Part shown: positions 25,197-34,803 of the stretch, piece after piece
Layout: every line of letters begins with the position of its first letter
Position numbering within the stretch: position 1 is the stretch's first letter
Origin: an uncultured Flavobacteriales bacterium
GTDB taxonomy: Bacteria > Bacteroidota > Bacteroidia > Flavobacteriales_F > PHOS-HE28
Direction: 5' to 3'
Length of the DNA stretch: 40,412 nt
Assembly: GCA_937873385.1 (NCBI GenBank)
Contig: CALMYC010000175.1
Span: 1 to 40,412 of the forward strand
Notes under the pieces: model-generated
Databases searched by the model: none
What the model saw: the letters and a program-made list of their open reading frames with translations, nothing else
Told to the model about the DNA's origin: nothing
Program-made: the position numbers and the translations under genes

Positions 25197-25919
25197 CTAC
25201 TCCACCTGCATCTTGAACCCGACCCCGTGCACGTTCACAATGCGCACGCGTTCATCGTGTTTCAAGTATTTGCGCAGGCGGCTGATGAACACGTCAAGGC
25301 TGCGGCCCAGGAAATAACTGTCATCGCCCCACACCATGTTCAGCACCAGCTCGCGCGGCAATACCTGGTCCATGTGCATGCACAGCAAGCGCAGCACGGC
25401 GGCTTCCTTCTTCGTCAACCGCCGCTCTTCGGCCGGGTGCTTCAAAATCTTGTTGCGCTCATCAAAGGTGTAATCCCCCAAGGTGAACACTTCCCGGTTG
25501 CGTTCTTCCGTGCCTTTCCCTTGCGTGCGCCGGAGGATGGCTTCAATGCGCAGCAACAGCTCCTCGTGGCTGAACGGCTTGGTGATGTAATCGTCGCCGC
25601 CAGCCTTGAAGCCCGCAATGCGGTCCTCCGTCTGGCTTTTGGCCGTGAGGAAGATGATCGGCACTGTGGCATCCGTCAGGCGGATGTCCTCGGCCAGGCT
25701 CAAGCCGTCCTTGTGCGGCAGCATCACGTCCAGCAGGCACAGGTCGTAGGTGTTCCGGTTGAAATGTTGCAGGCACTCCTTCCCGTCACGGAAGAGGTGT
25801 ACCGTGTATCCCTTGCGCTTCAGTGTGTCCTGCACCACAAAGCCAAGGTTCTCGTCGTCCTCCACCAAAAGCAGGGTGCCTTTGCTTTCCACCGGTGCCG
25901 TCGCCAGGTTTTCGTTCAT
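25197..25919 (-). CDS. OmpR-family response regulator
   Basis: 240 aa. The receiver domain has the acidic pair E20-D21-D22, the phospho-acceptor D64 in CLLDVMLPHKDG, and K114 in YITKPFS. The C-terminal half (about 140–240) is a winged-helix OmpR/PhoB DNA-binding domain, with RLTKKEAAVLRLLCMH and SLDVFISRLRKYL, ending in VHGVGFKMQVE. It is encoded directly after the cognate histidine kinase with a 4-base overlap. The pair resembles the RprX/RprY type of Bacteroidota. Targets are not visible from the sequence. Confidence 0.93.
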   Translation of the reverse strand: MNENLATAPVESKGTLLLVEDDENLGFVVQDTLKRKGYTVHLFRDGKECLQHFNRNTYDLCLLDVMLPHKDGLSLAEDIRLTDATVPIIFLTAKSQTEDRIAGFKAGGDDYITKPFSHEELLLRIEAILRRTQGKGTEERNREVFTLGDYTFDERNKILKHPAEERRLTKKEAAVLRLLCMHMDQVLPRELVLNMVWGDDSYFLGRSLDVFISRLRKYLKHDERVRIVNVHGVGFKMQVE

Positions 25920-27259
25920 GTTTTCGAGGTTGCTTTTCCCAAGGGAAGTTCAAGCGTGAAGATGCTCCCTTCGCCCCATGTGCTTTTCACCAGCACCTTG
26001 CCTCCATGGGAGCGGATCGTTTCCGAAACATAGTGCAGGCCCAATCCGAAGCCTTTTACGTCATGTACATTGCCGGTATGCACGCGGAAGAAGCGCTCGA
26101 AGATATTCCTTATGTCCTCCTTGCGGATCCCGATGCCCTTGTCCGCCACGTCAATGCGAAGGGTGCGGCGGTCATTCGAGGTCGAAATACGCACTTGCGG
26201 CGACCCCTTAGAATACTTGACGGCATTGTCCACCAAATTGAACAGTGCGTTGGTGAGGTGCATCCGGTCCCCGTTCACCACCGCGTTGGTGGCATTGAGC
26301 TCCATGAAGACCTCGCCGGAGCGTTCCTCCAGCAACAATTCAAAGGACTGCACCACCTCGGTGATCAGCTCGTGCATGTCCACGGCTTCCACCTTCAGCT
26401 TGGGCACGCTGCGGTCCAGCTTGGCCAGCTGCAATACGCGTTCCACCTGTTGGCGCAATCGCTCATTCTCCGAGCGGATGATCCGTGCATAGTTCCGCAA
26501 CCGTTCCGGTTCCTTGATGATCCCCGGGTCGTTCAGCACTTCGCTGCTCAGCGCTATGGTGCTGATCGGCGTCTTCAGTTCATGCGTCATGTTGCCGATG
26601 AAGTCGTTCTTCATCTCCCCGAGGCGTTTTTGCCTGAAGATCACCCACATGCTGTACGCGAAGAAGGCAAACACAATGAAGCTGACCACCGCCGGATAGA
26701 TCCAATTGATGGTGCCCCCGCTTTTCGGCTTCCAGATGGAACTGGTGCGGCGCGGGAAATACACCCCGAAATAGTGCCCGTCCTTGTTCAATTTCAGCAA
26801 CCTGCTGTGGTGGCTGGAATCCGTCCGTGCACTGTCATGCAGGCTGACGTAGTTGCCGTACACAATGCTGTCCGTGAAGCAATCATAGATGCCGTATTCG
26901 AAATCCTCGTTGATGTTCCTCCGCTTGAATTCCTGCTTCAGCAACGCTTCCAGCAGGTAGGGGTGAATGGTGTCATTGATGGTGACCGCGAAGTAGTTGG
27001 GCCGTTCCTGCTTCACTGCATCAAACAGGTCACTCGGGTCCTTGGTGATCGAAAGGATGCGCTCGGTGACGTCGGTGAGCGCAATGGTCACACGGTCGCT
27101 GAACTGCTTGTCCATCTGCCGCTGCTGCTGCTCCTGCAGGGCCACCTGCTCATGTTCGTATTGCTTCGCCCTGTCCAGCCAGATCACTTGGGTGAGCACC
27201 ACACCGGCCAAGCTGAGCGTGGCCAAAAGGACCAGGATGCCGAGGTTCCGCCTGTGCAT
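25916..27259 (-). CDS. Sensor histidine kinase
   Basis: 447 aa. There are two membrane segments (about 7–27 and 187–207) flanking a periplasmic sensor region of about 160 residues. The HisKA domain has the phospho-acceptor H226 in NMTHELKTPIS. The ATPase domain follows with NALFNLVDNAVKYS (N box), VADKGIGI (G1) and GFGLGLHYV (G2). It begins the kinase–regulator operon. The start lies 218 bases from the divergent HmuY-like gene. A near-consensus -7 (TAACATTG, one mismatch) sits at 27280–27287. Confidence 0.93.
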   Translation of the reverse strand: MHRRNLGILVLLATLSLAGVVLTQVIWLDRAKQYEHEQVALQEQQQRQMDKQFSDRVTIALTDVTERILSITKDPSDLFDAVKQERPNYFAVTINDTIHPYLLEALLKQEFKRRNINEDFEYGIYDCFTDSIVYGNYVSLHDSARTDSSHHSRLLKLNKDGHYFGVYFPRRTSSIWKPKSGGTINWIYPAVVSFIVFAFFAYSMWVIFRQKRLGEMKNDFIGNMTHELKTPISTIALSSEVLNDPGIIKEPERLRNYARIIRSENERLRQQVERVLQLAKLDRSVPKLKVEAVDMHELITEVVQSFELLLEERSGEVFMELNATNAVVNGDRMHLTNALFNLVDNAVKYSKGSPQVRISTSNDRRTLRIDVADKGIGIRKEDIRNIFERFFRVHTGNVHDVKGFGLGLHYVSETIRSHGGKVLVKSTWGEGSIFTLELPLGKATSKT

Positions 27260-27477: not shown

Positions 27478-28719
27478 ATGAAAAAATCATTCCTCCTCCT
27501 GGCCTCAACCGGGTGCATTTCCGCCCTCTGTGCCCAAACCGCCGTAACGGTGTCCACCCACCCTGGCACCACCGATCAAGTCTGGTACAGCTTGGAGAAC
27601 GGCGAAGCCGGGCGCGCAGCCTTGTCCGAATGGGACCTGGCCTTTGAAATGACCGGCTTCACCTCGTCCATCCGCGTGAACGCGGCCAAGGGGTTGATCA
27701 CCTACGAAACACCGGATGGCATCGGCGATTGGGACAACGTCACCTCTCCGGACACCGCGAATTGGACGATCGTTCAGAACAGCGACAGCAGTTGGTCCGT
27801 CGGGGCGCTGAACCACGGAAATGATCTCGCCAACCCGGACGGCGTGAACGTGGGCTGGGGCATTTACAACATGGTGACGCATGTGATCGCGGGGAACCGC
27901 ATCTATGTGATCCAATCGCCCGATGGTACGTTCCGCAAGCTTCGCATTGATGCGTTGAGCGCCGGTGTGTTCCACTTCACCTATGCCAACCTGGACGGCA
28001 GCAATTCCCATGATGCGACATTGGTGAAATCGAATTTCACGGGAAAGAATTTCGGCTACTATTCCTTTGACACGAACTCCGCATCGGACCGCGAACCGGC
28101 CACCGCCGCTTGGGACCTGCTTTTCTCCAAGTACCACCAACTGGAGCCGTACCCGTACACCGTGGTAGGTGTGCTCCAGAACAAGGCCGTCACCGCACTC
28201 CAAGTGGACGGCGTCCCCACGGGTGAGGCCGATTGGACTTCCGCCCCATTCCAAGTGAACATGAATGTGCTCGGCGCGGATTGGAAGCAGTACGACATGG
28301 ACCAGAACGCATACACCATCGTGCCGGACCGCACCTATTTCGTGAAGGATGTGCCAGGCAACATTTGGAAGATCGTTTTCTCGGGATATGGTGGCAGTGC
28401 TACGGGCGACATCAGTTTCAACCAGGAGCTGGTCAGTGCGGTCGGCGTCATGGATGTTGGTGCGGCCAAGGGCAGGTTGTTCGCATGGCCCAACCCCGTG
28501 GCAAACGGCCGTGCGCAGCTGGTCCTTGATGTGCCTGCCAACGAGGGTGTGTTGCGTGTGCTCAACACCTCCGGCCAGGAGCTCCTGCGGCAACGGATGA
28601 CAGGCCTGAGCGGGCTGGCCGGCCGCACACTCGACACAGGCAACTTGGCCAAGGGTGTTTACATCCTCCGCTTCGATGCGGCCTATGGAAACACCACGGG
28701 AAAACTCATTGTGGAGTGA
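27478..28719 (+). CDS. HmuY-like secreted protein with T9SS type A sorting domain
   Basis: 413 aa. The signal peptide MKKSFLLLASTGCISALCAQ is followed by an HmuY-family domain (about 25–325). Its hallmarks are a QVWYSLENG start, SEWDLAFEM, and later the AAWDLLFSKYH and YTVVGVLQN pair. The last 85 residues, from RLFAWPNPVANG to TGKLIVE, form a T9SS type A C-terminal domain, so the protein should be exported by type IX secretion and surface-anchored or released. HmuY of Porphyromonas gingivalis binds heme and hands it to the receptor HmuR. Here a TonB receptor gene follows. Heme as the ligand is inference. The start at 27478 gives a clean signal peptide. Confidence 0.8.
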   Translation: MKKSFLLLASTGCISALCAQTAVTVSTHPGTTDQVWYSLENGEAGRAALSEWDLAFEMTGFTSSIRVNAAKGLITYETPDGIGDWDNVTSPDTANWTIVQNSDSSWSVGALNHGNDLANPDGVNVGWGIYNMVTHVIAGNRIYVIQSPDGTFRKLRIDALSAGVFHFTYANLDGSNSHDATLVKSNFTGKNFGYYSFDTNSASDREPATAAWDLLFSKYHQLEPYPYTVVGVLQNKAVTALQVDGVPTGEADWTSAPFQVNMNVLGADWKQYDMDQNAYTIVPDRTYFVKDVPGNIWKIVFSGYGGSATGDISFNQELVSAVGVMDVGAAKGRLFAWPNPVANGRAQLVLDVPANEGVLRVLNTSGQELLRQRMTGLSGLAGRTLDTGNLAKGVYILRFDAAYGNTTGKLIVE

Positions 28720-28903
28720 GCCCATTGGTAGTTGACCTTATCAGGAAGCCCGGCGGTATCGGGGTGGCCGGGGGCAAACTGCATGTCTTACGCAGCGGTG
28801 ACGTTAATTCCGTGCCATGCGGTGAAATTCGCGCCATGCTGGCCGAATTGCCGCTTGGCCGGGGCGCATTGCGCACAGCACGGCGGATTTCCCGCAGGAT
28901 GCC

Positions 28904-31183
28904 ATGACACGCACTGCTCTTGCCTTGTCGTTCCTGCTCTTGGGTACGGCCGGTGCCGCGCAGGTGCCGATGTTGGTGCGGGATGCCGCCACCAGGGAAC
29001 CGGTTGCCTACGCCCATGTGGCATGGCAAGCGCTTGGCACAGCGGGCAAGGGCGTGGTGGTTGCCGGTCCGGACGGCAAGTTGACCCTTCCCGTGGACCC
29101 AGCCACCGTGCCCAACGGGATTGCCGTACGCATCGATTTCATCGGTTTCATGCCGGTGCAGGATACCCTGCGCTCCACCAGGCCCTGCACCTTTAACCTG
29201 AAGTGCGCGCAACAATTCAACCTGGATGACGTGGTGGTCACCGGCCAGTACCGGCCCACCACGGCGGACCGCGCCGTGCAGCGCATGCATGTCATCGGTG
29301 CAGGGCAGATCGAGCGGATGGCTGCACAGGGCCTTGCGGACGTGCTGGGCCAGGAACTGAACATGCGCCTTGCACAGGACAATGTGCTCGGCACTTCCAT
29401 GAGCATGCGCGGCCTCGGAGGGGAAAATGTGAAGATCCTTGTGGACGGCGTACCGGTGATCGGCCGACAGGACGGCAACCTGGACCTTGCACAATTGGAC
29501 CTTACGGGCATTGAACGGGTGGAGGTGATCGAGGGGCCGCTCAGCGTGAACTACGGCACCAATGCACTGGCCGGTACCATCAACCTCATCACCAAGAAGG
29601 GCGGCGGCAACGGCTCCTCGCTGAAGGCGGTGGCTTATACGGAACTGGTGGGGCGCCTGAACCTATCGGTGGCGGCCGGCCTGCGCTTGGGCAGGAACGA
29701 CCTGCTGATGACCATCGGCCGGAATTATTTTGGAGGGTGGGGACCCGGCCAGGATGCCGCCTATGACTTCGATCGGCATTTGGCGGATTCCTCCCGTTAC
29801 CAACCATGGAAGCCGCGCGAGCAGTACTTCGGCAGGTTGAATTACCGGTTTGCCTTGAACAAAAGGTGGACCGTGAACTACAAGGGAGAGGCCATGCAGG
29901 ACCGCATCTTCGACCGCGGCCTGCCCCGCGCGCCCTACGCAGAGAGTGCCTTTGATTCCGAATTCCTCACCAAGCGCATGGACAACGCCCTTTTTGCAAA
30001 GGGGGATGTGGGCAGATGCGGACACGTGGACGCCCTGATCGCCCACGATGTATATGACCGCACCAAGAGCACCTGGATCAGGAACCTCACCACCCTGGAC
30101 GAGGTGCCTGTGCCGGGGGAAGCGGACAATACCCGGTTCACCCTTACCAATGCGCGCGGCACGTGGTCCAGTGCAAGCGACAGTGCACGGCTGGGTTATG
30201 AGCTCGGCATCGACATCAACCAGGAAACAGCCACTGGGGAGCGCTTGGCGGACGGGACGGAGAAACGCATCGCCGACAACGCGGTGTTCGGCACCCTGCA
30301 GTGGAAGCCGGTGCGGCCGCTCATCGTGCGGCCGGGTGTGCGTGCAGCGCACAACACACAGTACAGCGCGCCGATCGTGCCTTCGCTGGACATCAGGTAC
30401 CAGCTGGCCCCGGCACTTGCCTTGCGTGCCTCCTACGCCGAGGGCTTCCGCGCCCCTTCGCTGAAGGAGTTGTACCTCTACTTTGTTGACGTGAACCACG
30501 ACATCCACGGTAACCCCGGCCTGGTGGCGGAATCGTCGAACAACTATTCGCTTTCACTGAGCTACCGCAAGGCACTGGAAAAGGGTGTGGTGCGCGCCGA
30601 ACTCGCCGGCTATCATGACCGCGTCCACAACCTGATCACCCTGGTGCAGGAAGGTGCCAACCTGTACAGCTATGTCAACGTGGGGGAGTACCGCACCCTG
30701 GGCGGTAGTGCCAGCGTGAACTGGGATGGTGGCCATTGGTTGATGGGCGCTGGCGCAGCATTGACCGGCCGGTATGACACGTTGGGCCTTGCCGGAGGTG
30801 GTGCATCCTATGATCTTGCGCCACAGGCCAACATCAATGCCACGCGCAGTTGGCGCAAGCAAGGTTGGAGCATCACCGCCTTTGCGAAGTACCAGGGGGA
30901 GCAACAGAACTACATTCAACTGGCCGACGGCAGCCTGGGGCGTGGAAGCATTGCTGCTTACGTGATGGCGGATGCATCCGTGGCGAAACGCCTTTGGAAT
31001 GACCGCCTCATGGTAACGGCGGGATGCAAGAACATCGGCAATGTCACGGACCTGAACGCCACCATGGGCAATGGCGGGGCGCCCAGCGATGCCGGAACGG
31101 GGAGCGTGCCCTTGGCCACGGGCCGCACCTACTTCCTGCGGTTGACGCTGGAGATGAAGGAGCGGGCGAAAAGCATGCAGTGA
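28904..31183 (+). CDS. TonB-dependent receptor, probable heme/iron type
   Basis: 759 aa outer-membrane receptor. It has a signal peptide (MTRTALALSFLLLGTAGAAQ), a carboxypeptidase-regulatory-like domain (about 22–100), a TonB-box-like DDVVVTG, a plug domain (about 125–235, with SMSMRGLGGENVKILVDGVP), then a 22-strand barrel. The barrel contains EGFRAPSLKELYLYF followed by a His-rich VNHDIHGNPGL. This resembles the FRAP…H…NPxL pattern known from heme receptors, though related wording also occurs in other TonB receptors. It lies between two HmuY-like genes, 184 bases after the first and overlapping the second by one base (TGATG). Confidence 0.85.
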   Translation: MTRTALALSFLLLGTAGAAQVPMLVRDAATREPVAYAHVAWQALGTAGKGVVVAGPDGKLTLPVDPATVPNGIAVRIDFIGFMPVQDTLRSTRPCTFNLKCAQQFNLDDVVVTGQYRPTTADRAVQRMHVIGAGQIERMAAQGLADVLGQELNMRLAQDNVLGTSMSMRGLGGENVKILVDGVPVIGRQDGNLDLAQLDLTGIERVEVIEGPLSVNYGTNALAGTINLITKKGGGNGSSLKAVAYTELVGRLNLSVAAGLRLGRNDLLMTIGRNYFGGWGPGQDAAYDFDRHLADSSRYQPWKPREQYFGRLNYRFALNKRWTVNYKGEAMQDRIFDRGLPRAPYAESAFDSEFLTKRMDNALFAKGDVGRCGHVDALIAHDVYDRTKSTWIRNLTTLDEVPVPGEADNTRFTLTNARGTWSSASDSARLGYELGIDINQETATGERLADGTEKRIADNAVFGTLQWKPVRPLIVRPGVRAAHNTQYSAPIVPSLDIRYQLAPALALRASYAEGFRAPSLKELYLYFVDVNHDIHGNPGLVAESSNNYSLSLSYRKALEKGVVRAELAGYHDRVHNLITLVQEGANLYSYVNVGEYRTLGGSASVNWDGGHWLMGAGAALTGRYDTLGLAGGGASYDLAPQANINATRSWRKQGWSITAFAKYQGEQQNYIQLADGSLGRGSIAAYVMADASVAKRLWNDRLMVTAGCKNIGNVTDLNATMGNGGAPSDAGTGSVPLATGRTYFLRLTLEMKERAKSMQ

Positions 31184-32157
31184 TGGAAAGAACGATACAG
31201 TTCGGTGCTTGGGTGGCGGCTTGCGCGCTTTGCGGATGCATGAAGGATGAGATCGCCGTCCCCAGGCACCCCCGTGGGGGTGTGGTGGAGGGCATCGCCC
31301 ACGTGGGGGCGGACTATGGCGCGCAGGTATGGTATGACCTTGGCACGAACAGCGTGGTTTCCACCAACGGCAAAATGGACTGGGACCTCGCCTTTGAATG
31401 CGGTGCGAACGGATGGCAGGTGCGGTTGAACAGTTCGCGCCTGATGCGTGCCCGCCAAACGGCTGATCAACTGGCACAAGCCACCGATACCGCCGGGTAC
31501 GGCGGTTCCTGGAAGATCGACCTGCCGAACGGGCGCCCGGACAGTTTGGCCTTCGGTGACTGGCGCACTGGGCAGCCCGTGTTTGTGGTGGACATGGGCT
31601 ACAACGTGATGGGCTTGCCCATCGGGTTGCGCAAGGTGCAGATCACCTCGGTTAGCGGGAGTGAATTCCAGTTCCGGTCGGCGGCGCTGAACGGTTCCGG
31701 CATCCAGGAATTCATTGTGCAGAAGGACCCCGCACGGGCATACGTCCACTTCAGTTTCTCCGCCGGAACAACCGTCCCCATTGCACCGCCTTTGGGCACC
31801 TATGATCTGGTCTTCACCCAGTACACGGAGCAGTTTTACGCCCCAGACCCCTATCTCGCCTATTCAGTGACCGGCGTGCTGAACGGCTATAGCGGCATTC
31901 GCGTGGCGAAGCTCACGGGCGATTTCAATGCCGTGTCATTGGCCGATACCCTGGCCCACCCGTTCAGCATGGACCAGGATGCCATCGGGTACAACTGGAA
32001 GGATTATTCATTCGATACCGGGGAATACCAGGTCTATGCCAACATGGTCTTCATCATCCAGGACCATTTGGGCTTCTTCCGCAAGCTGCACTTCATCGAC
32101 TTCTACGATGCACAAGGCCAGCGCGGTGCACCCACCTTTGAGATGGAGCAGCTCTGA
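31183..32157 (+). CDS. HmuY-like lipoprotein
   Basis: 324 aa. The signal peptide ends in LCGC, a lipobox with the acylated Cys19. The body shares with the upstream HmuY-like protein the QVWYDLGTN, DWDLAFECG, GTYDLVFTQYTEQ and YSVTGVLNG blocks and their spacing, but it has no T9SS C-terminal domain. It should be anchored in the outer membrane by lipid, as HmuY is in P. gingivalis. The ATG overlaps the receptor stop by one base, so co-expression with the receptor is very likely. The frame is open further upstream to 31024, inside the receptor gene. Confidence 0.82.
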   Translation: MERTIQFGAWVAACALCGCMKDEIAVPRHPRGGVVEGIAHVGADYGAQVWYDLGTNSVVSTNGKMDWDLAFECGANGWQVRLNSSRLMRARQTADQLAQATDTAGYGGSWKIDLPNGRPDSLAFGDWRTGQPVFVVDMGYNVMGLPIGLRKVQITSVSGSEFQFRSAALNGSGIQEFIVQKDPARAYVHFSFSAGTTVPIAPPLGTYDLVFTQYTEQFYAPDPYLAYSVTGVLNGYSGIRVAKLTGDFNAVSLADTLAHPFSMDQDAIGYNWKDYSFDTGEYQVYANMVFIIQDHLGFFRKLHFIDFYDAQGQRGAPTFEMEQL

Positions 32158-32163
32158 ACCGGC

Positions 32164-34656
32164 TCACTCCCCACCGCCCTCATCGCCGCCCCTGCGGCCG
32201 GGTTCCGGCCTGTCCGCCCCGGCGGATCGCCTGCCGAAGAGTTGCGCGTCCTGTTTGCCGAACCGCCACGTTGCGTTGATCCGGAATTCACGGCTGCCCC
32301 AGCTTCGGAAGCCCCGCTGTTCAAAGAAGGGTGTCCCGTAAAAGCTGCCCCAGCCGCGGGAATCAAAGATGTTGTTCGCACTGGCCGTCAGGAAAAAGCG
32401 TTTGCTGAACTCCTTTCGCAGCGTAACATCCATGGAATAGGTCTCCAGCGTATGCCCTTGCGGAATGGCGCGCGGGCCGTCATAGTCCGCATTCACTTGA
32501 AGCGTGAAACCCTTGGGCAGCTTCTGGGAAACATTGGCCTTGGCATCAAAGGCCACTCCTTGGTTACTGTAGTTCACCCCCCCCTGGGTGAGGCCGATGC
32601 TGATCCATTGCACATTGCCGTTCAACGTGGCTTCAGAACCGTTCCAAAGCGTGAGTTTCACGGTGTTCTCCCATCCGAAACTGTGGTTCTGCCTGCCGTT
32701 CACATACGTGGTGACCAATATGTTGGGGTCGTTTGCCAGCGGCGCGGTGAAACTGGTGATGACATCCGAGGTGAACCGGCCGTATAGCGAGGAAAGCCAA
32801 TTGCCCTTGCCCGCAAAGGGAAGCAAATGGTTTACTTCCACGATGGTGTTCATTTCCGGCCGCAGCACCGGGTTCCCGATCCGGTAGCTGCGCGCATCGG
32901 TGCTCATGATGAAAGGCATCAACTGGTAAAAGTTGGGGCGGTCCACCTTGCGCGACACATTGACCTGGAGCTCCTCCTGAAGTTCCCCTTCCGCAGCATC
33001 CCACTTGCGGCTCAAATACACGGCCGGGAACAGGATGCGGCCAAGATCGTCCAGTGCGCCGGGGTAATTGTAGCTGAAATCAAGGCGCTTGTCCGTGCGC
33101 TTCGCGTTCATCACGTTCTGTTCCACCCGCAGGCCGGCCTGCATGTTCCAGTGGGCGCTCAGCTTGGCGCCCCAATTCACGTAGCCCGCATTGATCATCG
33201 TGCCGATCCGGTACGCATTGCTCAATGCCGTGTCACGCAACAGTACCGGTAGGGTATCATTGGTGTAGGAAACATCCATCCAGGAGTTGTTCAATGCGTA
33301 GTTGGACCGGAATCCCCATTCCAGTTTCCGGTTGTCCGCATACGGGTCCGTCACATCCAATTGCCAGGTCCACTCCTGGCCATCGCCCTTCGAATCCCTG
33401 TTCTGGTAACTGTACCCGGGCAGGATCTGGTCACTGCCCGCATTGGTCTGCTCCGTGGTTGCGGGGGAACGGTTCTTGGAAAGGCTCAAGGTGAGGTCCG
33501 TGCTCCATTCCTTGCCGGGCTTGGTGGTGGTGCGCTTGAACCCCGCGCGCGAGGTGAGGTTGGTGTACCGCCCGTCCATGCCGTTGTGCTGGGTGCCGCT
33601 CCCGTTGGCGTTGTTCCCGGCATCCGTGCTGGTGAAGCGCTGGTCTTCGCTGCTGTTGCGCGTGCCGATGCTGATCCCTTGGGAAAGGCTGACGGTGTTG
33701 CGGTTGCTCAGGTGGTAGTCCCAGCCGAGGCGCGCATTGGTGCGCATGTGTTCATGGGTGCCTTCCGCATTCTGCCTGAAGTACCCGGTGGGAAGCCCTT
33801 CGGCCAGGTCCGTGCGGTAATTGTAGCTGGTGCCGGGCGCAGCCGAATGCCCCAGGCCCCCGTTCAGTGTGATTGCGCTCTTGCCCTGGCGCATCAGCAG
33901 GCTGCCATTCGCGTTGTACCGCTGGTTGCTTCCCAGGCCGGCTTGCAACTGTCCACTGTAGCCCGGCCGGGTGCTCTTTTTCATCACCACGTTCACGATG
34001 CCGCCCGTGGCGCTGGCATCGAACAGCACGCTCGGGTTGGTGATCACTTCCACGCGCTCAATGTCGCTGGCCGGGATCTGGTCCAGGGTCAGCGGCGAAG
34101 GCCTGCCGTCCACAAAAATGCGCGGGCTTTTGCCGCGCATCTCCACGTTGCCGTCCGCATCCACGCTCAGGCCGGGAATGTTCTTCATCACATCGGTGGC
34201 ATCACCCCCGGTCACGCTGATGTCCTTGTCCACGTTGTACACGCGGCGGTCCACCTGCAGCACTTGCGTGGCGCGCTCCTTGGTAACCTCGGCCGCTTTC
34301 AGCACCACGGCGTCAGTTTCCAGCCGCAGGTTGCCCAAGTCCAGTGTGGGAGCCTCCGTGGAAAGGGTGAACTCCTTCTCCAACGTGCTGTAGCCAAGTC
34401 CTGCCACCTTCAGCTTAAGCTTGCCCAAGGGTAACTTGGGTAGGTCAAAATCGCCATTTTCCTGGACCAGTGCACCGCCTACCATGCTGTCCGCCAGCAT
34501 GACGCTCACGGAAGCGAAGGCCACGGGCTTTTTATCCGCATCGATCACACGCCCGTAGGCATGGCCAGTGGGCATCCGGCCACCGCCCCAGCGCTGGGCA
34601 TGCAGGAGGCTTGGCAGAAGGGTGGCGAGCAGCAAGGCCGAAAACTTGGGAAGCAT
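32164..34656 (-). CDS. TonB-dependent-receptor-like outer-membrane beta-barrel protein
   Basis: 830 aa. The signal peptide MLPKFSALLLATLLPSLLHAQ is followed by a carboxypeptidase-regulatory-like domain (about 35–110, GRVIDADKKPVAFASVSVML), then a plug-like region (VDRRVYNVDKDISVTGGDAT, RGKSPRIFVDGRPSPLTLDQ) and a long barrel ending in an OMP_b-brl_3-type strand series. The C-terminus is an unusual Gly/Arg/Glu-rich tail (GADRPEPGRRGGDEGGGE) after the last strand. The transported substrate is unknown. The start at 34656 gives the signal peptide and is six bases from a perfect -7 element. It converges with the HmuY lipoprotein gene with a 6-base gap. Confidence 0.82.
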   Translation of the reverse strand: MLPKFSALLLATLLPSLLHAQRWGGGRMPTGHAYGRVIDADKKPVAFASVSVMLADSMVGGALVQENGDFDLPKLPLGKLKLKVAGLGYSTLEKEFTLSTEAPTLDLGNLRLETDAVVLKAAEVTKERATQVLQVDRRVYNVDKDISVTGGDATDVMKNIPGLSVDADGNVEMRGKSPRIFVDGRPSPLTLDQIPASDIERVEVITNPSVLFDASATGGIVNVVMKKSTRPGYSGQLQAGLGSNQRYNANGSLLMRQGKSAITLNGGLGHSAAPGTSYNYRTDLAEGLPTGYFRQNAEGTHEHMRTNARLGWDYHLSNRNTVSLSQGISIGTRNSSEDQRFTSTDAGNNANGSGTQHNGMDGRYTNLTSRAGFKRTTTKPGKEWSTDLTLSLSKNRSPATTEQTNAGSDQILPGYSYQNRDSKGDGQEWTWQLDVTDPYADNRKLEWGFRSNYALNNSWMDVSYTNDTLPVLLRDTALSNAYRIGTMINAGYVNWGAKLSAHWNMQAGLRVEQNVMNAKRTDKRLDFSYNYPGALDDLGRILFPAVYLSRKWDAAEGELQEELQVNVSRKVDRPNFYQLMPFIMSTDARSYRIGNPVLRPEMNTIVEVNHLLPFAGKGNWLSSLYGRFTSDVITSFTAPLANDPNILVTTYVNGRQNHSFGWENTVKLTLWNGSEATLNGNVQWISIGLTQGGVNYSNQGVAFDAKANVSQKLPKGFTLQVNADYDGPRAIPQGHTLETYSMDVTLRKEFSKRFFLTASANNIFDSRGWGSFYGTPFFEQRGFRSWGSREFRINATWRFGKQDAQLFGRRSAGADRPEPGRRGGDEGGGE

Positions 34657-34661
34657 GTGGC

Positions 34662-34669
34662 CAAAGGTA
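34662..34669 (-). promoter_or_regulatory. -7 promoter element for the 830-aa outer-membrane protein gene
   Basis: Read on the - strand this is TACCTTTG, an exact TAnnTTTG match, ending 5 bases before the ATG at 34656. A transcript starting about 7 bases downstream would begin at or next to the start codon, i.e. leaderless or nearly so. No -33 TTG was found. Confidence 0.4.
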
Positions 34670-34803
34670 CCGGACACCACGGGAGGGTGGCGGCATCACC
34701 CGGTACCCGGATTTTCGCTCATCCCAGCTTTGGGATCCTCGGCAACCACCGCTCCAAATGGGGCTGGCTCGCGGGCCTCCCCGTTGCCCGGCTGCAACGA
34801 AGA

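Follow-up and report, generated by a model that had tools for sequence, protein, structure and literature searches.

A TonB receptor gene between two HmuY-like genes, one for a predicted type IX cargo and one for a predicted lipoprotein, in an uncultured Flavobacteriales bacterium

Introduction

The familiar HmuY is a lone lipoprotein on the cell surface that serves a single receptor. The stretch of DNA analysed here (the window, 40,412 nucleotides from an uncultured Flavobacteriales bacterium) raises the question of what two HmuY-like proteins, apparently anchored in different ways, would do on either side of one TonB-dependent receptor, and whether heme is their common ligand. A first-pass annotation, made from the sequence alone, had proposed a relay in which one copy is exported by the type IX secretion system (T9SS) and the other is held by lipid, and had suggested comparing structure predictions of both proteins with HmuY and checking whether the trio is conserved.

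Results

The locus and its three proteins

The window is the entire contig C175 of a 3.54 Mb assembly with 359 contigs and 95% completeness, and it carries HmuY1, the TonB receptor and HmuY2, all on the plus strand and in that order, as shown in Table 1. HmuY1 and HmuY2 account for the only two PF14064 matches in the host assembly, and they are homologous to each other (24% identity, pairwise E 6e-21). Domain matches, models and conservation in relatives together confirmed the trio.

Table 1. Features of the HmuY1, TonB receptor and HmuY2 locus, in positions of the window
Feature	Position	Strand	Basis
HmuY1: signal peptide, tandem HmuY-like domain, T9SS type A sorting domain	27478..28719	+	ORF, domain matches, model
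HmuY1 tandem HmuY repeats (A ~27538-28008, B ~28009-28446)	27538..28446	+	profile comparison, fold
HmuY1 His135 codon, candidate heme ligand	27880..27882	+	conserved in 56/57 aligned sequences
HmuY1 T9SS type A sorting domain	28486..28716	+	profile matches, solved cargo domains
TonB-dependent receptor	28904..31183	+	PF07715, PF00593
Receptor EGFRAP...NHDIHGNPGL segment	30440..30523	+	sequence
HmuY2: lipoprotein, tandem HmuY-like domain	31183..32157	+	lipobox, PF14064, model
HmuY2 lipidated Cys19 and C-M-K-D-E-I surface-export-like signal	31237..31254	+	sequence, rule of PMC5080379 (available text)

HmuY1 matches PF14064 (HmuY) at 35.4 bits (cut-off 27) and the T9SS type A sorting domain TIGR04183 at 32.6 bits (cut-off 23), with a marginal PF18962 match of 27.4 bits (cut-off 27). 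Its signal peptide, as read from the sequence, ends in CAQ, its sorting domain matches solved T9SS cargo domains in a profile search (8glk at E 1.3e-9 and others), and the host genome has a SprA_N match at E 8e-163. By this combination of signal peptide, sorting domain and SprA in the same genome, HmuY1 is a predicted T9SS type A cargo, and the first-pass claim of a T9SS-exported HmuY-like protein was borne out at the level of sequence. The identity of the sorting domain rests on sequence because its Ig-like fold is common, and fold rows from unrelated proteins scored nearly as high for it. Among the best 80 of 194 relatives, the sorting domain was found in 71 of 72 HmuY1 proteins, counted at a lenient 15-bit threshold with a model built from the genus. 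The HmuY1 of L149 (4379-5713) has a lipoprotein-like signal and no sorting-domain match; judged by these signals, both HmuY copies may be lipid-anchored in that locus, which may offer a natural test case.

HmuY2 matches PF14064 at 59 bits (cut-off 27), its signal sequence ends in the lipobox LCGC and a profile search gave no sorting-domain match, in agreement with the earlier description of a second HmuY-like protein with a lipobox and without a T9SS domain. In the window its ATG overlaps the receptor stop codon by one base; in 59 of 62 measurable loci no more than 20 bases separate its start from the receptor stop, and 36 of these show a 4-base overlap. The available text of PMC5080379 gives C-X-K-(D/E)2-X as the optimal surface-export signal of C. 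canimorsus lipoproteins. The C-M-K-D-E-I of HmuY2 fits this rule, which comes from another genus, and a surface location is thereby predicted. Of the 80 HmuY2 sequences (best 80 of 194 relatives), 56 show C-x-(K/R)-(D/E)2 before the domain; in the same loci, a pattern search picked out 35 further lipoprotein-like ORFs, and none of these has it. C-x-(K/R)-(D/E)-E occurs in 37 of 40 genus loci, the window included, the exceptions being two cut sequences (L059 and L070) and one with an unreadable N-terminus (L060). Two successive pattern scripts recognized the lipobox in 51 and then 55 of the best 80 HmuY2 sequences of 194, and each of the 25 that were missed has a Cys at the expected place when read by eye.

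The receptor between them carries Plug (PF07715, 68.4 bits) and TonB barrel (PF00593, 119.7 bits) domains and, as annotated before, EGFRAP followed by the His-rich NHDIHGNPGL. A motif of the FRxP-NH-NxxL type was found in 73 of 75 related receptors with a loose pattern and in 44 of 75 with a strict one; the available text of PMC9331221 cautions that the heme-receptor motif alone leaves the substrate undecided. The TonB-hemin model TIGR01785 scored 119.7 bits, under its cut-off of 316.85, and the BtuB (vitamin B12) model TIGR01779 scored 119.6 bits, under its cut-off of 599.7. Cobalamin was considered as a ligand for these equal scores and was set aside because the window has no Rfam family match, hence no cobalamin riboswitch at the gathering score, and because relatives have heme genes within the trio. 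BtuH was likewise considered as a relative of HmuY and rejected: the title of one paper assigns B12 binding to DUF4465 domains, and HmuY goes unmentioned in the BtuH papers among the literature matches listed.

Fold, tandem repeats and candidate heme ligands

Models of both proteins were obtained with high confidence (pLDDT 94.4 and pTM 0.90 for HmuY2; 93.8 and 0.75 for HmuY1), and the suggested structural comparison turned out in favor of HmuY, as both models fit its fold and 3h8t (P. gingivalis HmuY with heme) tops the VIA-align re-scoring of the Foldseek matches for each. The alignment with 3h8t reached Z 15.6 and rmsd 2.5 over 137 residues for HmuY2, and Z 12.9 and rmsd 3.0 over 131 residues for HmuY1. 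In the same re-scoring, the first eight rows for HmuY2 are HmuY relatives and the ninth drops to 4.9, and for HmuY1 seven HmuY relatives score 10.7 to 12.9, its remaining rows covering only the last 80-odd residues with T9SS sorting-domain-like (8qb1, PorU, PorZ, 8glk) or Ig-like folds. Foldseek alone placed other multi-domain chains first for HmuY1, with HmuY chains from rank 13. Profile searches of solved chains retrieved 8b6a and 3h8t with both HmuY2 (E 1.7e-6 and 0.0032) and HmuY1 (E 2.3e-5 and 0.004); searching the solved chains with the HmuY2 sequence by itself retrieved no HmuY, which profiles and folds did find.

Leaving any sorting domain aside, each protein runs to about 300 residues, compared with 175-200 in solved HmuY chains, and contains two repeats. 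Profile comparison of repeat A with repeat B gave a probability of 96.7 (E 3.4e-10) in HmuY1 and of 92.1 (E 6.2e-7) in HmuY2, repeat B of HmuY1 matched repeat B of HmuY2 at 99.9, and the control, the sorting domain against HmuY2 repeat A, gave 1.0. Since the structural alignment on the HmuY2 model spans both of its ends (13-306), the HmuY-like unit may, as modelled, join the start of repeat A to the end of repeat B.

Conserved residues differ between the two proteins. His135 is kept in 56 of 57 aligned HmuY1 sequences and is the sole His column of HmuY1 above 50%; the HmuY2 alignment has no strongly conserved His (best column 58%), and Met88 is present in 88% of its sequences together with several conserved Tyr. 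The repeat A profile of HmuY1 gave a weak alignment to the solved protein of T. forsythia (12.9 bits over the stretch), which puts His135 two residues from the Met of an NPMGK stretch, and by our reading of the numbering this Met would be the ligand Met169. As far as the available texts go, the axial ligands are His134/His166 in HmuY and Met143/Met169 in Tfo (PMC11967795), the latter pair being written Met140/Met169 in PMC9331221, and two Met can serve as ligands in known HmuY proteins (PMC11208336).

Conservation of the trio

A scan of genome contigs gave 194 HmuY2 relatives, of which the best 80 were kept; the cultured Fluviicola chungangensis and Taibaiella soli are among the relatives. HmuY2 is present in all 80 loci, the receptor in 77 and HmuY1 in 72, and the conservation check ended with a complete trio in 72 of the 80, all on one strand in the order HmuY1, receptor, HmuY2, as scored by a script covering the plus strand. 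A contig edge truncates seven of the eight incomplete loci (L085, L097, L107, L108, L123, L127, L138 and L143) on their upstream side; in L108 more than 4 kb of upstream sequence contains no receptor, and in L107 a HmuY1 fragment follows HmuY2. The gap between HmuY1 and the receptor is below 400 bases in 45 of the 72 complete loci, as in the window.

A class-wide sample of 129 genomes, five host-genus members included, gave matches in 43 genomes and in 33 of 88 genera. In 34 of these 43 genomes a pair of matches shares a strand and lies within 10 kb, with the HmuY2-like match first in two of them (G064 and G105). PF14064 alone missed HmuY in 6 of 45 genomes, of which profile A1 recovered 3. 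In a tree of 27 loci (every second locus with both proteins, the window sequences left out), HmuY1 and HmuY2 fell into separate clades with 100/100 support, which indicates from sequence that they are old paralogues inherited together.

Genes around and inside the trio

The Pfam scan of the genes flanking the trio in the window identified YqeY, a response regulator, a kinase, an outer membrane protein, a desaturase and CotH. The response regulator and sensor kinase (25197-27259, minus strand) are divergent from HmuY1, and the same kinase is likewise divergent upstream of the trio in 21 of 39 genus loci read by eye; this pair is possibly the regulator of the trio. Hemin acquisition under a two-component system has reportedly been published for P. 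gingivalis. On the other side, a TonB-type outer membrane protein (OMP_b-brl_3, CarboxypepD_reg; 32164-34680, minus strand) converges on HmuY2, and it is also seen in 32 of 39 genus loci read by eye.

In relatives, additional genes lie within the trio. HemS stands between HmuY1 and the receptor in 10 of the 72 complete loci, 8 of which add a periplasmic binding protein, an FecCD permease and an ATPase, and a CbiX-type protein takes that place in 11 (L110, L115, L119, L124, L129, L132, L133, L136, L140, L141 and L145), accompanied in 9 cases by a PepSY-type membrane protein. The two never occur together in the 72 complete loci, neither was seen elsewhere in them, and the CbiX-type protein has a lipoprotein-like signal in those inspected. 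A small DUF6686 protein was observed inside the trio with either of these back ends (L115, L124, L133, L135, L136 and L148). DUF6607 occurs inside the trio in three of the complete loci and outside it in three more. Pfam searches of the query proteins gave HemS at E 2.4e-73, CbiX at 1.2e-15, PepSY_TM_like_2 at 1.1e-14 and DUF6607 at 1.9e-112. The DUF6607 protein of L126 matches 8xjc, a chain named haemophore, at E 7.4e-72; this would fit RhuH of R. anatipestifer, 8xjc presumably belonging to PMC11967795. By analogy, the CbiX-type protein, standing in the place of HemS, might release iron from heme like HmuS of Bacteroides; the available text of PMC12583661 describes a CobN-type HmuS that de-chelates heme.

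Heme synthesis in the host genus

Among 44 genus genomes, ferrochelatase was matched in four (G012, G016, G019 and G032) and HemE in three (G012, G016 and G019). The host genome has neither match, and it has two COX1 matches. HmuY2 is present in 41 of the 44, all 30 good genomes included, and both enzymes are unmatched in 40 of these 41, G019 being the exception. All three genomes without HmuY2 (G012, G016 and G032) match ferrochelatase (Fisher p 3e-4); they are 84, 73 and 69% complete, respectively, and may share one ancestor. Judged by ferrochelatase and HemE, most of the host genus is probably heme-auxotrophic. HemS was matched in 14 of the 44 genomes, and neither HemS nor CbiX in the host genome. 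The genus gave two weak CbiX matches, but both fall in ferrochelatase genes already matched in those genomes; they were rejected, and no separate CbiX was found there.

Discussion

The trio resembles several published systems and differs from each of them. The HmuY-HmuR system of P. gingivalis (hmuYRSTUV) has the HmuY fold, an adjoining TonB receptor and a surface lipoprotein like HmuY2; however, it has one single-domain HmuY of about 180-190 residues, whereas the trio has two tandem-repeat proteins, one with a T9SS sorting domain, and none of hmuSTUV is among the Pfam-scanned genes flanking the trio in the window. C6N29_01035 of F. columnare combines a HmuY domain with Por_Secre_tail as HmuY1 does, but is described in the available text of PMC9618737 without a lipoprotein HmuY or a receptor partner. 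HfpR-HfpY of F. psychrophilum, from the same class, pairs a HmuY-family heme-binding protein with a co-transcribed TonB heme receptor; it has one HmuY-like protein, an unknown gene between the receptor and hfpY, and a partly conserved receptor motif (PMC9331221, as far as available). RhuH-RhuR-RhuA of R. anatipestifer unites a secreted haemophore, a TonB receptor and a surface heme-binding protein in one locus, and heme transfer from RhuH to RhuA or RhuR is suggested by its authors, but RhuH has another fold than HmuY, is secreted in vesicles and is encoded divergently from rhuR-rhuA (available part of PMC11967795). In the hmu operon of P. endodontalis, the gene of a T9SS sorting-domain protein is followed by hmuY and hmuR; that protein is described as beta-barrel-like, with no role assigned, and a single HmuY homologue is encoded there (PMC11208336, as far as available). 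Accessible portions of two further papers report that hmuY of P. intermedia is iron-regulated and precedes a T9SS-domain gene (PMC10434189) and that HmuY homologues are numerous, up to three per genome (PMC12106395).

The premise that a described HmuY is a lipoprotein holds for P. gingivalis and fails for F. columnare, whose HmuY is T9SS-secreted according to the available text of PMC9618737. The novelty implied by the first-pass annotation was overstated, because both a T9SS HmuY (PMC9618737) and a three-part secreted, receptor and surface heme system (PMC11967795) are in print, as the available parts of these papers indicate. Among the literature matches listed, in which subscription papers are thinly covered, neither an exported and lipid-anchored HmuY pair around one receptor nor the spread of the trio and its link to missing heme-synthesis genes is described, and the literature search found no paper on heme auxotrophy in Flavobacteriales.

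Heme as the ligand, which the first-pass annotation had drawn from the receptor motif and family, now appears well supported by sequence comparison, with neighbor genes in relatives and missing heme-synthesis genes in the genus added to the motif. A relay from exported HmuY1 through lipoprotein HmuY2 to the receptor is plausible; the analysis shows sequence, domains, modelled folds, conservation and gene neighborhood, and from these we infer heme binding, surface location, docking and the direction of transfer. In this model of an outer-membrane heme-uptake system, to which we give an even chance, the type IX system would carry HmuY1 across the outer membrane to act as a hemophore, either in the surroundings or at the cell surface, with His135 as part of its heme site. 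HmuY2 would be a lipoprotein displayed on the surface and co-produced with the receptor; most likely it would dock on the receptor, take heme from HmuY1 (or free heme) and pass it inward for import by the TonB receptor. In the host genus, mostly without HemE and ferrochelatase matches, the trio would probably provide heme as a cofactor beyond iron alone. Counted against the model are the absence of a conserved His from HmuY2, the receptor score under the TonB-hemin cut-off and a host without HemS or CbiX. Two published deletions also count against it because their phenotypes are nil or mild: F. columnare lacking its T9SS-secreted hmuY grew without defect in the tested media (PMC9618737), and F. 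psychrophilum lacking hfpY was mildly affected on hemoglobin and unaffected on hemin (PMC9331221), both as given in the available texts.

The strongest rival, drawn by analogy with BtuB-BtuG, is that HmuY1 alone carries heme and HmuY2 would be a non-binding lid or docking subunit. BtuB and BtuG reportedly form stable complexes, with the surface lipoprotein on BtuB. The single His kept in 56 of 57 HmuY1, against none conserved in HmuY2, would fit such a division of labor, as would the tight coupling of the HmuY2 gene to that of the receptor (start within 20 bases of the stop in 59 of 62 loci, with the 4-base overlap in 36); yet HmuY2 retains the HmuY fold, Met88 (88% of sequences) and a number of conserved Tyr, and HmuY proteins are known to use two Met (available text of PMC11208336). 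We hold this reading to be rather unlikely. Lower still we place a parallel arrangement in which HmuY1 and HmuY2 would serve the same receptor with different heme sources or redox states. Two fully separated clades with different conserved residues agree with it, as does the direct transport of free heme by P. gingivalis HmuR (PMC11208336, as far as available), but the constant gene order and the co-occurrence of all three in 72 complete loci suggest one unit, an argument that does not separate serial from parallel action. A ligand other than heme (corrinoid, metal-free porphyrin, siderophore or other), suggested by the nearly identical TonB-hemin and TonB-B12 scores far under both cut-offs, is very improbable given the lack of an Rfam match and hence of a cobalamin riboswitch at gathering score in the window, the HemS, CbiX or haemophore homologue inside relatives' trios, the reciprocal pattern with ferrochelatase in the genus and the FRxP-NH-NxxL type motif in 73 of 75 receptors.

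Extended beyond the host, the serial relay from HmuY1 through HmuY2 to the receptor leads to a broader reading that we offer tentatively and hold to be doubtful as a whole: a class-wide two-stage relay with a receptor-clamped HmuY2 and one of two back ends, HemS plus an ABC importer or the CbiX-type lipoprotein. On this broader reading, the CbiX-type lipoprotein may strip iron from heme outside the cytoplasm, and the two-stage relay would be the cofactor-heme source of free-living bacteria without heme synthesis.

An exported and a tethered HmuY in fixed order in 72 complete loci would provide a clean test of hemophore-to-receptor heme handover in Bacteroidota. The alternation of HemS and CbiX inside the trio points to a candidate route of iron release from heme, and the retention of the trio in a genus where 40 of 41 HmuY2-bearing genomes lack HemE and ferrochelatase matches suggests that heme is traded in communities.
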